Shown: positions 18,707 to 23,871 of the stretch, piece by piece
Numbering within the stretch: position 1 is the first letter of the stretch
Layout: each line of letters begins with the position of its first letter
Notes under the pieces: model-generated
Databases searched by the model: none
Seen by the model: only the letters and a program-made list of their open reading frames with translations
Told to the model about the DNA's origin: nothing
Program-made: the position numbers and the translations under genes
Assembly: GCF_003626635.1 (NCBI RefSeq)
Contig: NZ_RAZT01000002.1
Location: 496,001-560,000, forward strand
Direction of reading: 5' to 3'
DNA length: 64,000 nucleotides
Origin: Micromonospora musae
Lineage (GTDB): Bacteria > Actinomycetota > Actinomycetes > Mycobacteriales > Micromonosporaceae

Positions 18707-19252
18707 GTGGAGACGGCGGAGCGGGGGGTCCTGCTGACGGTCGGCCACGGACCGTTGCGCCGTGACGCGCTCGGCGGACTGCTGGCCGGGGCCGGGGTGG
18801 GGCTCGTCGTCGACGTGCGCCGCTTCCCCGGCAGCCGCGCCAACCCGGACGTCCACCGGGACGCCCTTTCGCGGTGGCTACCGGAGCTGGGGATCGGATA
18901 CCGCTGGGAGGAGCGCCTCGGCGGCCGGCGACATCGACCGGCCGGCGCGCCGGAGCACGACACCTGGTGGACCGTTGCGGCGTTCCGTGCGTACGCCGCC
19001 CACAGCCGGACACCACAGTTCCTGGCGGCGTTGGATCTCGTACTCGACGAGGTCGCTTCGGGCCCGACGGTCATCATGTGCAGCGAGAGCGTCTGGTGGC
19101 GCTGCCATCGCCGGCTGATCGCCGACGTCACGACCCTGAGCCGCGCCGTGCCCGTACGCCACCTGATGCCGGACGGACGGTCGACGCCGCACCCGGTGGC
19201 GGCCGGTGCCCGGCTGCGTTCCGACGGCACTGTCGAGTGGACCGGCGGTTGA
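18707..19252 (+). CDS. DUF488 family protein
   Basis: This 181-residue cytoplasmic protein belongs to the DUF488 family, whose biochemical role is not established. Diagnostic stretches are LTVGHGPLRRDALGGLLAGA, LVVDVRRFPGSRANPD, the EHDTWWTVAAFRAYA helix, and the late Cys/His signature CSESVWWRCHRRLIADV. GTG 18707 gives the conserved beginning; the hexamer GATGAT lies six bases upstream and could be the -10 of a leaderless transcript, as no ribosome site is present. It is divergent from the P450 and convergent with the membrane protein gene. Confidence 0.85.
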   Translation: METAERGVLLTVGHGPLRRDALGGLLAGAGVGLVVDVRRFPGSRANPDVHRDALSRWLPELGIGYRWEERLGGRRHRPAGAPEHDTWWTVAAFRAYAAHSRTPQFLAALDLVLDEVASGPTVIMCSESVWWRCHRRLIADVTTLSRAVPVRHLMPDGRSTPHPVAAGARLRSDGTVEWTGG

Positions 19253-19268
19253 GGGCGTCCGCGCCGGA

Positions 19269-19697
19269 TCAGGACGTGGCGAGCAGGAGGATCCCGAGGG
19301 CGAGCAGCGTGGCGGCCTTCGCCACCTCCAGCAGCACGTAGTTGAGGTGGCTGCCGGAGCGGGGCGCGTCCTCGCCCGCGAGCACCCGCCGGGTCCGGGC
19401 GTTCAGCCGGGGCCGCACCGCGACGAGTTGCACAAGCAGCACCGCCGCCGCCAGGCCGGTCACCGCGACGACGGGGGCGGCCGGCGCGCCGAGGAGCACG
19501 GCCGCGAGCAGGGTCAGCGCGAGACCGGACTCGATCACGTTGAGCGCCCGGAAAACGAGTCGTCCGATGCCGAGCCCGATGGGCACCGTGACTCCGGGGG
19601 CGCGGAACTTCAGCGGCGCTTCGAGGAACGAGATGGCCAGCACCATCCCGAGCCAGACGAAGACCACGGCGGTGGCGAGGGCTGACGGCAGGCTCAT
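19269..19697 (-). CDS. Small four-helix membrane protein, unknown function
   Basis: This 142-residue integral membrane protein has hydrophobic segments at about residues 5-22, 46-68, 75-92 and 120-141, with a charged loop (RPRLNARTRRVLAGEDAPRSG) between helices 3 and 4. I do not recognise a named family. It begins 9 bases after the truncated globin on the same strand, so it is very likely cotranscribed with it and may be part of the nitric-oxide response (inference from context). Confidence 0.75.
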   Translation of the reverse strand: MSLPSALATAVVFVWLGMVLAISFLEAPLKFRAPGVTVPIGLGIGRLVFRALNVIESGLALTLLAAVLLGAPAAPVVAVTGLAAAVLLVQLVAVRPRLNARTRRVLAGEDAPRSGSHLNYVLLEVAKAATLLALGILLLATS

Positions 19698-19706
19698 CGA
19701 CCTCTC

Positions 19707-20153
19707 CTATCCCTGTGGATGGTCTTCGGGCGCCCGGAGGACCGGACCGGCCAGCGGGATGCGGCTCGGAGCCTCGTTGCGGTCGCCGGCCAGCCGGCGC
19801 TGCATCGCTCCGGCGATCCGGCCCGCCTGGAGCTTGGCGTGCTCGGCGCGGGGCCCGGCGTGCCGGTCGTCGATGGTGGCTGTCCAGAGCGCGAGCCAGC
19901 GGGCGAAGTGCCGTTCGGTCAGCGGTTCGAGCCGGTGCAGGTCGAGGTGGAGCCGGAGGGCGTTGCGCCGGTAGGCGCCGGACTTGAAGATCACGGTCTC
20001 CCAGAAGTCGCACATGATCGGCAGATGCCGGTCGAGGTCGAGCTTGGCGACGTCGACGAAGACGTGCCCGAGGAGATCGTCGGCGAAGGCGCGGGAGTAG
20101 AAGTCGGTGATGACACCGGCGATGTCGCTGCGGTCGCTGATGTCGGTCACCAT
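19707..20153 (-). CDS. Group III truncated haemoglobin
   Basis: This 148-residue haem protein is of the 2-on-2 truncated globin class, group III. The pattern is ITDFYSRAFADDLLGHVF (helices A-B), HLPIMCDFWETVIFKSGAYRRN (helices C-E) and the proximal histidine H82 in LTERHFARWLALW. The C-terminal extension beyond the globin fold (residues about 120-148) is short and charged. Group III globins bind O2 and NO and are linked to NO or peroxynitrite detoxification. AAGGAG lies 8 bases before ATG 20153. It is divergent, 45 bases away, from a Cys-containing winged-helix regulator that probably controls it. Confidence 0.9.
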   Translation of the reverse strand: MVTDISDRSDIAGVITDFYSRAFADDLLGHVFVDVAKLDLDRHLPIMCDFWETVIFKSGAYRRNALRLHLDLHRLEPLTERHFARWLALWTATIDDRHAGPRAEHAKLQAGRIAGAMQRRLAGDRNEAPSRIPLAGPVLRAPEDHPQG

Positions 20154-20198
20154 CTCCGGCGCTCCTTTTTCACAATCTTCATCGTATATATTGGGTCG
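20154..20198. promoter_or_regulatory. Shared divergent promoter region, globin / Fe-S type regulator
   Basis: Only 45 bases separate the two starts. On the plus strand TATATT (20187-20192) ends 6 bases before the regulator's GTG, so that transcript should be leaderless. The AT-rich block AATCTTCATCGTATATATT is unusual for this genome and is the likely operator, but no clean dyad is visible. Confidence 0.6.
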
Positions 20199-20849
20199 GT
20201 GAGCAGCCACGTGAGCTACGGCGCACTCGCGGTCCCGACCCGCCGACACCTGCTGGACGTGCTTCGCGAGCAGCGCCGGCCGATGGGCCTGCGAGAGCTG
20301 GCCACGATCACCGGGCTGCACGCCAACACCGTCCGGTTCCACCTGGACGTGCTGACCAGCGCCGGATTCGTCGCCCGGGAGCAGGGCCCGCCGACCGGGC
20401 CGGGACGACCCGCGACGCTCTACCGCAGCACCAGCCCCGGCACCTCCGGCGGCGGCTACCGGCTACTGGTCGGGATCCTGGCCGACCGCCTGGCCGAAGC
20501 CGACACGGAGGGCCTGGCCGAAGAGGCCGGGCGGAAGTGGCTGGACGCCTCCGCGGCGGCCGATCCGCCCCCGGAGGGCGATCCGCTCGGCACCGCCACG
20601 ACCCGCTCGGTCGCCCTCTTCACGGAGCTCGGCTTCGCTCCCACCGCCGAGACGAGTACGTCCGGCAGCCGGATCGAACTACGCGCGTGCCCCTTCATCG
20701 ACGAGGCACGCAAGCATCCCGACGTCGTCTGCGGCGTACACCGCGGCCTCCTGCGCGGGGTCGCGGAGGCGGTCACGCCGGCGGGACTGACCACCCGGCT
20801 GACGCCCTTCGCCCGCCCCGGCGTCTGCCTCGCCGAGATCATCCGTTAG
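20199..20849 (+). CDS. Winged-helix regulator with Fe-S-type cysteines (SufR-like)
   Basis: This 216-residue DNA-binding protein has an N-terminal winged helix: TRRHLLDVLREQRRPMGLREL, recognition helix HANTVRFHLDVLTSAGFV and wing GPGRPATLYR. The C-terminal region carries C164 (ACPFIDEARKHPDVVC), C178 and C210, the layout of SufR-like repressors that hold an Fe-S cluster sensing iron, oxygen or NO. GTG 20199 is 6 bases after a TATATT -10, implying leaderless translation. Its position, divergent from a group III globin and 135 bases from hmp, argues for an NO-sensing role rather than control of an Fe-S assembly operon, which is not present here. Confidence 0.82.
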   Translation: MSSHVSYGALAVPTRRHLLDVLREQRRPMGLRELATITGLHANTVRFHLDVLTSAGFVAREQGPPTGPGRPATLYRSTSPGTSGGGYRLLVGILADRLAEADTEGLAEEAGRKWLDASAAADPPPEGDPLGTATTRSVALFTELGFAPTAETSTSGSRIELRACPFIDEARKHPDVVCGVHRGLLRGVAEAVTPAGLTTRLTPFARPGVCLAEIIR

Positions 20850-20903
20850 CGCCGAACGGCCCCGCCGCTCCGAGCGCCGGCGCAGCGGACGGTCGGGGCG
20901 CTG

Positions 20904-20948
20904 ATGCCCGGCTCGTGCCGGGAAGCAGCGCCCCGCGAGCCGGGGCAT
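20904..20948. terminator. Bulged hairpin terminator between convergent regulator and hmp
   Basis: ATGCCCGGCTCG (20904-20915) pairs with CGAGCCGGGGCAT (20936-20948), with one bulged base. The loop itself contains further G/C pairing. Confidence 0.72.
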
Positions 20949-20984
20949 GCGCCCGAAGGCGCAGCCCCGGCCCGGACGGGACCG

Positions 20985-22196
20985 CTAGGAGCGGCTACCC
21001 ACCCACGCGTCGGAGCCGAAGACCTCGTACCGGATCTGGGCACCGGGTACGCCCCGGTCCCGAAGCCGGCTCCGGACCGCCTGCATGAACGGCAGCGGTC
21101 CGCACAGGTACACCTGCGCCTCCGGTGCCAGCGGGATCTCGTCGACCTCGATCCGCCCGGCACGCACCTCGGTCGACCCGTCGGCCTCGTGCGGCGCCTG
21201 CCGCTCGTACCAGACCAGGTGCCGGAAGGAGCGCAGTCGGGCGCCGCTGCCGATGATGTCGGGTCGCAGGCAGTGGCGGGCGAGGCTGCGTTCGGCGTGC
21301 GCGACGACGACGTCGCGGTTCGGCTCGGTGCGGGATACGTGGTCCAGGATGGCGGCCATCGGCGTGATACCGACGCCGGCGCTGACCAGCACCAACGGCG
21401 CGGTCCCGGCGGTCAGGGTGAGATCGCCGTAGGGGGCGCTCACCTCCAGCCGGTCCCCGGTACGGACGTTGTCGACGAGGTGGCTCGACACGAGCCCGTC
21501 CGGCGCCCCGCCGACGCCCCGCACCCGACGTACGGTGATCCGCAGACCGCCCAGCCCGTGGGCCGCCTGAGAGAGGGAGTACTGACGGATCTGCCGCCCG
21601 CCGTCCGGCAGATCGACGGCGACGCTGACGTACTGTCCTGCCCGATAGCTCGGCATCGGCGCCCCGTCGGCGCTGGTCAGCACGAACGAGACGGTGTCCT
21701 GCGCCTCCTCGCGCCGGTGGCTGACCACGACCTCGCGCCACGGGTGCTCCGGGTCGATGTCGGCGTGGGCGTACAACCTCGCCTCCAGGCCGATCAGCCG
21801 GCAGGCGAAGAGCCAGTAGACCTCGTCCCAGGCGGCGGCCACCGCGGGCGTGACCGCGTCGCCGAGCACGGCGCCGACCGCGTTCAGCAGGTAACGACCG
21901 ACGAGGGTGTACTGCTCCGGGCGGATGCCGAGCGAGGCGTGCCGGTGGGCGATGCGGCGGATCACCGGGTCGAAGCTCGCCCCCTCGCCCACCAGGTCCG
22001 AGGCGAAGGCGATCACGGCGCCGGCGAGCGCCCGGCGCTGCTCACCGCTGGCCTGCGCGCTGCGGCTGAAGAGGCGCCGCAGCTCCGGGTTCTCGGCGAG
22101 CATGGTGTCGTAGAAGAGCGCGGTGATCGTTTCGAGGTGTGCGCCAACGGCGGGAAGGGTGGCGCGCACGGTCGCTTCGTGCGTGGAGGACAGCAC
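20985..22196 (-). CDS. hmp: Flavohaemoglobin (nitric oxide dioxygenase)
   Basis: Flavohaemoglobin converts NO plus O2 to nitrate using NAD(P)H through FAD and haem. The 403-residue protein shows the globin domain (TVRATLPAVGAHLETITALFY; proximal His in RIAHRHASLGIRPEQY), then the FAD domain (RQYSLSQ) and the NAD domain (VSAGVGITPMAAILDHV, VYLCGPLPFM). GTG 22196 is chosen over ATG 22208: GGGAG lies 5 bases before it, and the protein then begins LSSTHEATVRATLP, as other family members do. It lies 52 bases downstream of nsrR on the same strand, so NsrR very probably represses it until NO appears. Confidence 0.94.
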   Translation of the reverse strand: MLSSTHEATVRATLPAVGAHLETITALFYDTMLAENPELRRLFSRSAQASGEQRRALAGAVIAFASDLVGEGASFDPVIRRIAHRHASLGIRPEQYTLVGRYLLNAVGAVLGDAVTPAVAAAWDEVYWLFACRLIGLEARLYAHADIDPEHPWREVVVSHRREEAQDTVSFVLTSADGAPMPSYRAGQYVSVAVDLPDGGRQIRQYSLSQAAHGLGGLRITVRRVRGVGGAPDGLVSSHLVDNVRTGDRLEVSAPYGDLTLTAGTAPLVLVSAGVGITPMAAILDHVSRTEPNRDVVVAHAERSLARHCLRPDIIGSGARLRSFRHLVWYERQAPHEADGSTEVRAGRIEVDEIPLAPEAQVYLCGPLPFMQAVRSRLRDRGVPGAQIRYEVFGSDAWVGSRS

Positions 22197-22248
22197 GGGG
22201 TCTCCCATCAGCTGTGGTGGATCGATGACTCGGGCGGGGTCCGGTCGC

Positions 22249-22674
22249 TCACCGGCTGGTGAGCGAGAGGAGCAGGTCCCGGGTCGGTGCATGCAGCAGA
22301 TCGCCGACGGTCACCTCGTCGAGGCTGGCGTAGAAGGCCTCCTGCGCGCGGCGGAGGGCACCACGGAGCCGGCAACCGGTCCGCAGCGGGCAGGCGGGCG
22401 TGTCGCAGTTGACCACCTCGCCGTCGGCTTCGAGCCGCCGGATGAGGCCGCCGATGCTCGCCGAGGTCGCGCCGTCCGCGAGCAGGACGCCACCGCCGCG
22501 CCCGCGGATCGTCTCGATCAGCCCCAGGTGCTGGAGCCGCTGGACGATCTTCGCGAGGTGGTTCCGTGGCACCGCGAGGGACTGCGCCAGTTCGTCGACA
22601 GTGGTCTTACCGCCCCGGGTCCCCAGGAGCATCACGACTCGGAGGCCGATGTCCGTCGACTGATTGAGCTGCAC
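22249..22674 (-). CDS. nsrR: NsrR, Rrf2-family Fe-S nitric-oxide sensor
   Basis: This 141-residue Rrf2 winged-helix repressor keeps all four expected [4Fe-4S] ligand positions of Streptomyces NsrR in kind: Asp8 (QSTDIGLRVVM) and three cysteines, C90, C95 and C101, in CDTPACPLRTGC. The first spacing is four residues, rather than the five I recall for the Streptomyces protein. The DNA-reading helix is VPRNHLAKIVQRLQHLGLI and the wing is RGRGGGVLLADG. NO destroys the cluster and lifts repression of hmp-type genes. The GTG start follows TAGGCT by 6 bases, so the transcript is probably leaderless. It is cotranscribed with hmp. Confidence 0.93.
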   Translation of the reverse strand: MQLNQSTDIGLRVVMLLGTRGGKTTVDELAQSLAVPRNHLAKIVQRLQHLGLIETIRGRGGGVLLADGATSASIGGLIRRLEADGEVVNCDTPACPLRTGCRLRGALRRAQEAFYASLDEVTVGDLLHAPTRDLLLSLTSR

Positions 22675-22680
22675 AGCGGG

Positions 22681-22758
22681 AGCCTAACAAAACAGGTATT
22701 TGATATTCCTCTTTTGTGGGTCGGGTCACCGCCGCCGGTCGTACCCTCCGCCTACGCT
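22681..22758. promoter_or_regulatory. nsrR promoter with NsrR-like operator, and facing leaderless promoter of the glycosylase gene
   Basis: On the minus strand TAGGCT (22681-22686) is the -10 of leaderless nsrR. Just upstream, AGGTAT-TTGAT-ATTCCT (22694-22710) is a dyad with five of six matching positions in an AT-rich island, fitting autoregulation by NsrR. On the plus strand TACGCT (22753-22758) ends six bases before the GTG of the YcaQ-like gene. Confidence 0.7.
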
Positions 22759-22764
22759 CGGCCG

Positions 22765-23871
22765 GTGACCGTGCACCCGCTGTCCCGCACCGACGCGCGA
22801 CGCCTCGCCGTGCGCGCCCAACTCCTGGACGCGCACCGACCGGCCGGGATGTTCGACGTCGTCCGTCGGCTGACGCTGGTGCAGAACGATCAGACCGCGG
22901 CCGTCGCGCCCAGCGCCGACCTGGTCCTGTGGAGCCGCCTCGGCGACTCCTACTCCCCCGGGCAGCTGCGCGACGCCCTCGACGAGCAGACCCTGCTGGA
23001 GCTGCACGGCTTCGTCCGGCCGCCGGAAGACCTCGCGCTCCACACGGCCGAGATGGCCGAGTGGCCCGGCCGTCCCCCGCTACGCGTTTGGCAGGAGGAG
23101 CTGCAGGAGTGGGTGGCCGTGAACAACGGCTGCCGACTGGACATCCTCGCCCGGCTGCGCGCCGACGGGCCGCTGACCTCGCGCGAGCTTCCCGACACCT
23201 GCGTGGTGCCGTGGCGCTCCTCCGGCTGGACCGACAACCGCAACGTCACCAAGCTGCTCGACTTCCTCGTCCAGCGGGGCGAGGTCGCCGCCGCCGGCCG
23301 GCGCGGCAAGGACCGGCTGTGGGACCTCGCCGAACGGATCTACCCGGACGAGGTGGTGCCGTACGAGGAGGCGATGCGGCTGCGGAACGAGCGCCGGCTG
23401 CGGTCGCTGGGCATCGCGCGTGAACGGGCGCCGGTGAGCCCGGGCGAGCCGAACGACGTTCGGGCGGCCGGTGAGCCCGCCGTCGTCGAGGGGGTGAAGG
23501 GCCGATGGCGGGTCGATCCCGAACTGCTGGACCAGACCTTCACGGGCCGGACCGCGCTGCTGTCCCCGCTGGACCGGCTCGTCTTCGACCGGACGCGGAT
23601 CGCCGAGCTGTTCGAGTTCGACTACCAACTGGAGATGTACAAGCCAGCCGCCGAGCGGCGCTGGGGCTACTGGGCGATGCCGATCCTGCACGGGGACCGG
23701 CTGGTCGGGAAGCTCGATGCGGCCGCCGACCGCAGGGCCGGTGTGCTGCGCGTGCACGCCATCCACCAGGACACTCCGTTCACCAGCGCGACCACCGCCG
23801 AGGTGCGGCGGGAGATCGAGGCCCTGGCCGAGTGGCTCCGGCTGACCCTGGTGGTGACGAGTCCACGCTGA
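22765..23871 (+). CDS. YcaQ/AlkX-like winged-helix DNA glycosylase
   Basis: This 368-residue HTH_42 family protein is related to E. coli YcaQ and Streptomyces AlkZ, which excise bulky alkylated bases and unhook interstrand crosslinks. The catalytic Q-x-D/Q motif is visible as Q40-N-D42 in LTLVQNDQT, i.e. the QxD (YcaQ-like) subtype, followed by the family stretch LVLWSRLGDSYSP. Later landmarks are LDILARLRADGPLTSREL, NVTKLLDFLVQRGEVAAAGRRGKDRLWDL and LLSPLDRLVFDR with YKPAAERRWGYWAMPILHGDRLVGKLD. The start is leaderless, with TACGCT 6 bases upstream. It is a single gene ending in a 16-bp hairpin. Confidence 0.87.
   Translation: MTVHPLSRTDARRLAVRAQLLDAHRPAGMFDVVRRLTLVQNDQTAAVAPSADLVLWSRLGDSYSPGQLRDALDEQTLLELHGFVRPPEDLALHTAEMAEWPGRPPLRVWQEELQEWVAVNNGCRLDILARLRADGPLTSRELPDTCVVPWRSSGWTDNRNVTKLLDFLVQRGEVAAAGRRGKDRLWDLAERIYPDEVVPYEEAMRLRNERRLRSLGIARERAPVSPGEPNDVRAAGEPAVVEGVKGRWRVDPELLDQTFTGRTALLSPLDRLVFDRTRIAELFEFDYQLEMYKPAAERRWGYWAMPILHGDRLVGKLDAAADRRAGVLRVHAIHQDTPFTSATTAEVRREIEALAEWLRLTLVVTSPR

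Follow-up and report, generated by a model that had tools for sequence, protein, structure and literature searches.

How are the genes of a compact nitric oxide (NO) defence locus controlled when two regulators with different DNA-binding folds lie side by side within it, and does the small membrane protein encoded next to its globin take part in the defence? Here, we explored these questions in Micromonospora musae, at positions 19269–22674 of a 64,000-nucleotide stretch of contig NZ_RAZT01000002.1 (hereafter, the window; its 7.07-Mb genome, G000, is one of the 354 genomes of the family that were searched). The initial annotation had listed a globin, a membrane protein, a divergent Cys-bearing winged-helix regulator and an nsrR-hmp operon, and all five genes were recovered where it had placed them. 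We consider it fairly probable that they form two NO-defence circuits running in parallel, one consisting of nsrR and hmp, and the other governed by an NO-sensing regulator resembling ArnR (denoted reg), which would control the globin, the membrane protein gene (mem) and itself. The locus is laid out as follows:

19269–19697, minus strand: mem, a 142-residue, four-helix membrane protein, DUF4149-like and presumably TMEM205-like (sequence, structural model, gene neighbourhoods)
19707–20153, minus strand: group III truncated globin, 148 residues, starting from the ATG at 20153 (sequence, family profile)
20167–20190, no strand assigned: predicted operator of reg, TTTTCACAATCTTCATCGTATATA, in the gap that separates the divergent starts (palindromic model)
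20199–20849, plus strand: reg, ArnR-like regulator with an ArsR-type winged helix, a Bet3/TRAPPC3-like domain and C164, C178, H181 and C210
20850–20984, no strand assigned: strong hairpins where reg and hmp converge, a probable two-way terminator lacking a T run
20985–22208, minus strand: hmp, flavohaemoglobin, 407 residues (domain matches)
22249–22674, minus strand: nsrR, Rrf2-family repressor with D8, C90, C95 and C101 (domain, nearest solved relative)
22691–22713, minus strand: predicted NsrR operator AAGAGGAATATCAAATACCTGTT, upstream of nsrR (match to the operator printed in PMC9338935)

The first circuit is that of NsrR. Its Rrf2 domain is recognized at 6.4e-29, the best solved relative is NsrR of Streptomyces coelicolor (1.9e-36), and Asp8 and the three Cys, named as ligands in the initial annotation, are all in place, so that the protein combines the fold and the ligand set of an NsrR, with a score of 94 that lies below the cut-off of 182 of the NCBIfam NsrR equivalog. 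Hmp, encoded 40 bp 3′ of nsrR, unites globin, FAD and NAD domains in one chain, as expected of a flavohaemoglobin, and likewise remains below the cut-off of its NCBIfam model (353 against 432 bits). At the promoter of nsrR, the putative operator at 22691–22713 shares 17 of 23 bases with the crystallized hmpA1 operator of S. coelicolor NsrR, as given in PMC9338935; this is the best match in the window, and ten shuffled windows peak at 13–16. An NsrR model recovered sites in all 15 nsrR upstream regions, which were its training set and hence not an independent sample, and in 0 of 63 reg upstream regions. From this site, a [4Fe-4S] form of NsrR would repress its own nsrR-hmp operon, to be released by NO so that flavohaemoglobin is made.

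The identity of the second regulator is where our analysis departs from the initial annotation, which had proposed a SufR-like protein. The ligand pattern of reg is C-x13-C-xx-H-x28-C (C164, C178, H181 and C210, with spacings of x13 and x31 between the Cys); all 13 family members share the set, and C-P-(F/L)...C-xx-H recurs as a run in 43 of 43 further reg proteins. In an AlphaFold2 model (predicted local distance difference test score, pLDDT, 85; predicted template modelling score 0.59), an ArsR-type wing spanning approximately residues 1–81 precedes a Bet3-like domain (82–216), the latter aligning with Bet3 entries in VIA-align at Z 11–12 (for 2c0j, Z 11.8, root-mean-square deviation 3.0, 128 aligned residues). 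ArnR, as described in PMC12343034, has Cys 179/193/223 with a conserved His close by, and its sensor domain is TRAPPC3-like; its three Cys bind a [4Fe-4S] cluster, and it responds to NO but hardly to oxygen. Thus, reg carries in its C-terminal half an ArnR-type trio of Cys (x13 and about x29 in that type) with the conserved His and, judging from the model, would share the combination of an ArsR/MarR-type winged helix with a TRAPPC3-like domain. Two homologues, both from small genomes within a single genus, reach 132 and 123 bits against the reg profile, compared with 43–75 bits for SufR types. One of the two, in genome G954, closes a nar-modAB cluster, in which narG was identified by model, whereas narK, narH, narJ, narI, modA and modB were assigned by visual inspection of the reading frames; we take this homologue to be ArnR-like, the setting being as described for ArnR of Corynebacterium glutamicum.

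The same comparison leads us to reject SufR as a name for reg. The SufR of this genome, located beside SufB, has C-x12-C-xx-E, the pattern of the SufR types encountered in this analysis, and scores 43 bits on the reg profile, and Rv1460, a SufR described in PMC6034842, has Cys 203/216/244, a spacing less close to that of reg than the one in ArnR, whereas reg shows x13 with a His at +3, lacks the C-x12-C run, and has the globin, mem and hmp rather than suf genes as neighbours. Given ligand spacing, fold model, profile scores and neighbours, reg is better named ArnR-like than SufR-like. We describe it as working like ArnR rather than file it as ArnR, because neither nsrR nor hmp in the window carries a reg operator, so that ArnR-type control of hmp is not seen here (for nitrate reductase, no search covered the nar genes of this genome). 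The tree of the regulators consists of long branches that meet, with reg needing 3 changes rather than forming one clean group. It could also be argued that reg binds zinc or no metal, that its Cys/His set has a structural role like that in zinc-bound TRAPPC3, and that the ligand is a small molecule. The modelled fold indeed matches ArsR-type metal sensors as well as Bet3, and a zinc-bound TRAPPC3 template is mentioned for ArnR in PMC12343034; however, ArnR holds a [4Fe-4S] cluster with the same three Cys, and the strict conservation of the whole set (13/13 and 43/43) also speaks against this possibility, which we rate as highly unlikely.

What reg binds was approached with a palindromic operator model trained on 48 reg upstream regions from outside the family of the window. 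The model recovers a site in 15 of 15 held-out family upstream regions, 14 of these sites beginning 29–32 bases before the modelled start. For the site in the window, at 20167–20190, 0 of 200 shuffles matched the score; it occupies the 45-bp gap between the divergent starts of the globin (ATG, 20153) and reg (GTG, 20199). A ferredoxin gene joins the reg operon, upstream of reg, in 21 of the 48 loci, and here the operator precedes the ferredoxin gene in every case (21/21), outside the stretch used for training. The other 27 loci have the operator in 22 cases, and three more sites overlap the start (L127, L132, L133); counting these, 46 of 48 loci possess it. Across 1.01 Mb scanned, 38 of the 43 sites of at least 17 bits lie before reg, 1 before mem and 4 elsewhere. 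These four occupy one place in related Nocardia (L064 8096, L066 8107, L068 8106, L082 8109), about 1.7 kb past mem and before a small unannotated open reading frame, possibly an additional gene of the regulon. In L084, L102, L105, L110 and others, the ferredoxin gene between operator and reg is, by eye, of the 7Fe type. A strict form of the pattern had no match in the genome of the window because the site in the window itself departs from it; a looser form returned this site alone without mismatch plus one site with two mismatches, against 1 match for the reversed control. In the searches made of openly licensed literature, mostly at the level of listings, we found neither a description of this operator nor a role for mem.

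The two regulators thus appear to read different sites. No nsrR or hmp upstream region exceeds 6.5 bits on the reg model, and the NsrR model is blank on reg upstream regions; therefore, the circuits are separate at the DNA level. Motif discovery on the mem-only, hmp and nsrR upstream sets gave no reg-like motif. The initial annotation assigned NsrR to hmp and the second regulator to the globin, a division upheld by the distinct, non-overlapping predicted operators, though with an ArnR-like protein in the place of the SufR-like one; the layered control that it suggested finds no support, because the two sites never share a promoter in the window and the circuits accordingly look parallel. In the second circuit, a reg dimer with a [4Fe-4S] cluster on C164, C178 and C210, and perhaps H181, would occupy the single operator in the 45-bp gap and repress both sides; nitrosylation of the cluster would release the dimer and allow the globin, mem and reg to be made, the globin then serving in NO capture or dioxygenation. 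Gene content, the predicted operators with their specificity and conservation, the conserved Cys/His set and the predicted fold come from the present analysis; we infer the cluster, the NO signal and the direction of control (repression) from the biochemistry of ArnR and NsrR reported in PMC12343034 and PMC4432287.

How firmly is the globin tied to this regulator? Its preferred start is the ATG at 20153, which has AAGGAG upstream. Taken as a single sequence, it had no Pfam or PDB match within the limits applied. A family profile of 16 relatives has the group III globin 2IG3 as its best solved match (1.5e-11; next, 5.9e-5), and H42, W50 and H68 (numbered from the GTG at 20150), which we take to be haem-pocket residues, are invariant in the 16 sequences; both traits identify a group III truncated globin. 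The gene is scarce, being present in 18 of 354 family genomes, with the copy in G211 reduced to a weak match with an internal stop. In 14 of these 18 genomes, reg adjoins the globin divergently. Near the globin, mem is found in 10 (one in pieces), behind reg in 8 and behind the globin in only 2, G000 and G016. In G020, the globin directly follows nsrR-hmp, the 9 kb inspected there contain neither reg nor mem, and the family-wide mem search lists no match. Among the side observations, L021 has the globin directly 3′ of hmp (1890–1980), with an inverted repeat between them and no reg or mem in 9 kb, which might be read as a natural rewiring to NsrR, and in L034 and L035 the globin, with no reg nearby, is preceded by a palindrome like GTCAACCATAGGTTGAC in two copies, perhaps the site of another regulator. 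Group III globins elsewhere are reported to be hypoxia-induced and DosR-dependent (MAV_4008 of Mycobacterium avium, PMC11876180) or NnrR-dependent (bll6222 of Bradyrhizobium, PMC6710368).

The initial annotation had also set conservation of the compact gene order as a check, and the genome search showed the order to be nearly unique: of the 354 family genomes, two (G000 and G016) have it in full, and G020 has it in part. Along with the rarity of the globin (18/354), this would fit a chance pile-up of accessory genes, with no functional tie between the two units. Yet the smaller units, reg-globin, reg-mem and nsrR-hmp-mem, are conserved instead and recur in distant genera together with their operators, the G020 globin stands behind nsrR-hmp, and profile hits to reg, nsrR, hmp or the globin around mem number 76 within 2.2 kb against 0 between 2.2 and 6 kb. 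Chance is the least credible of the explanations weighed here.

These counts bring us to mem itself. Its 142 residues are modelled as a bundle of four long helices (pLDDT 95), and the polar residues that are invariant or nearly so include E26, K30, R46, E56, R95, R101, E124 and K127. Against PF13664 (DUF4149), 25 of 40 members match at E ≤ 1 (best, 1.2e-8), with the window member, at E 7.2, falling under the cut-off; the family name TMEM205-like is our own assumption. The model had no Foldseek match among solved folds at E 0.001. Kinship with the entries returned by VIA-align was rejected, these being designed or unrelated helical bundles. The scan of named genomes yielded 80 loci, which rank highest among at least 575 relatives and include close kin (e.g., L064, L066 and L068 of Nocardia), so that the counts do not represent independent events. 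Directly upstream of mem on the same strand lies reg in 38 loci, nsrR-hmp in 11, nsrR in 1 and hmp in 1, that is, one of these genes in 51 of 80. Within the family, mem occurs in 31 of 354 genomes, and 30 loci were returned, of which 22 have reg in view, a further 3 have a reg operator before mem (one of them, in L242, weak at 13 bits) and 5 have neither, making 25 of 30 with reg or its operator. A scripted set of 37 mem genes that lack an NO-unit gene upstream contains a strong reg operator in 3 (L048, L077, L113) and an NsrR site in 1 (L044), most having neither; in G543, a mem-globin pair lies behind an NsrR site (L044, L224). On the mem tree, the reg and NsrR settings require 5 changes among 89 labelled tips, two labels having been set from operators, the family labels assigned by hand and the tips with neither setting left out.

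Thus, mem is not specifically the partner of the globin, as the initial annotation had it; that arrangement holds in G000 and G016, but mem sits behind reg far more often. That annotation had also noted that it has no known role in NO stress; its recurrence in NO-gene units suggests one, and our guess is that mem protects or supports respiration from the membrane side under NO. More broadly, it is an even call whether actinobacterial NO defence includes this DUF4149-like protein, perhaps of the Rv2620c family, as a dedicated component in the membrane, controlled either by NsrR or by an ArnR-like [4Fe-4S] repressor whose 24-bp operator is conserved, and swapped between the two controls several times. 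Separately, mem is in fragments in L024 (4288–4458 and 6057–6209), as are mem and reg in L264, reflecting either decaying copies or sequencing faults, and 3′ of mem in several loci, among them L049, L097 and L121, lies a small conserved gene whose product contains a GGHxHxLRQT-like run and looks cupin-like by eye.

Several observations weigh against the reading of two NO circuits. In 29 of the 80 named loci, none of the four genes is directly upstream of mem, and most of the 18 globin loci returned by a phylum-wide search have neither reg nor mem in view. The scan for the reg operator came up empty at the G954 nar cluster, where the best sites reach 10–11 bits, and ArnR types may therefore read another sequence. 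Some reg loci also hold genes for ferredoxin, DUF2249/hemerythrin, COX1 and a methyltransferase, the last three in divergent orientation. In Mycobacterium tuberculosis, Rv2620c–Rv2622, a locus that joins genes for a regulator and a transmembrane protein with the methylase gene Rv2622, is among the genes lowered under aldehyde treatment (both from PMC10470581), and Rv2621c, called ArnR-like in PMC12343034, is raised in a csoR mutant (PMC4801387), early after nitrite (PMC6593118) and in non-culturable cells (PMC4221891). These neighbours and expression shifts leave room for a broader respiratory or redox signal: reg would still carry an Fe-S cluster but sense hypoxia, the Fe-S status of the cell or damage that oxygen or copper does to the cluster, with the globin engaged in oxygen or redox chemistry and NO as one inducer among others. 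The ferredoxin gene preceding reg in 21 of 48 loci and the hypoxia induction of the M. avium globin through DosR fit this picture. Against it, mem follows nsrR-hmp in 11 of its 80 loci and nsrR or hmp alone in another 2, and ArnR, which has the same architecture, responds to NO and hardly to oxygen. On balance, we find a broader signal rather unlikely and favour the two parallel NO circuits.

The remaining features concern the borders of the transcription units. The 135 bp between the convergent hmp and reg genes fold strongly (z −4.3 and −5.4 by strand; 0 of 200 shuffles equal), and a two-way terminator is the probable reading. A search of 19200–22800 for consensus promoters and T-tailed terminators found none.

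Taken together, these results turn what seemed a curiosity of one genome into a regulon predictable from sequence, comprising one regulator with its operator and a few targets, that spreads over Streptomyces, Nocardia, Mycobacterium, Kribbella, Actinomadura and the family of the window. The unstudied mem family gains a concrete, testable hypothesis, and two NO sensors that apparently swap targets lend themselves to a natural comparison. If Rv2621c-Rv2620c belongs here, the question extends to mycobacteria.

How does the locus compare with characterized systems? The nsrR-hmp unit closely follows that of S. coelicolor (PMC4432287 and PMC9338935) in its Rrf2 repressor, ligands, matching 23-bp operator and hmp adjoining nsrR; it differs in that hmp in the window lacks a separate operator and forms one operon with nsrR, which precedes it. 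The globin is allied through its family profile to Campylobacter Ctb (2IG3), which is under another regulator, a reference title linking the Campylobacter globins to NssR. With SufR, reg shares the superfamily, the winged helix and a three-Cys sensor but not the C-x12-C-xx-E pattern or the suf neighbourhood. The order of Rv2621c-Rv2620c resembles that of several Mycobacterium loci of the reg/mem set, which, from order and annotation alone, makes this pair a lead for a reg-mem pair. Finally, ArnR of C. glutamicum and reg have in common a near-identical three-Cys spacing with a His, a winged helix combined with a TRAPPC3-like domain and a link to NO genes, and the homologue in an ArnR-like nar-mod setting scores 132 bits on the reg profile; by contrast, ArnR controls narKGHJI and hmp, whereas the predicted targets of reg are the globin, mem and reg itself.

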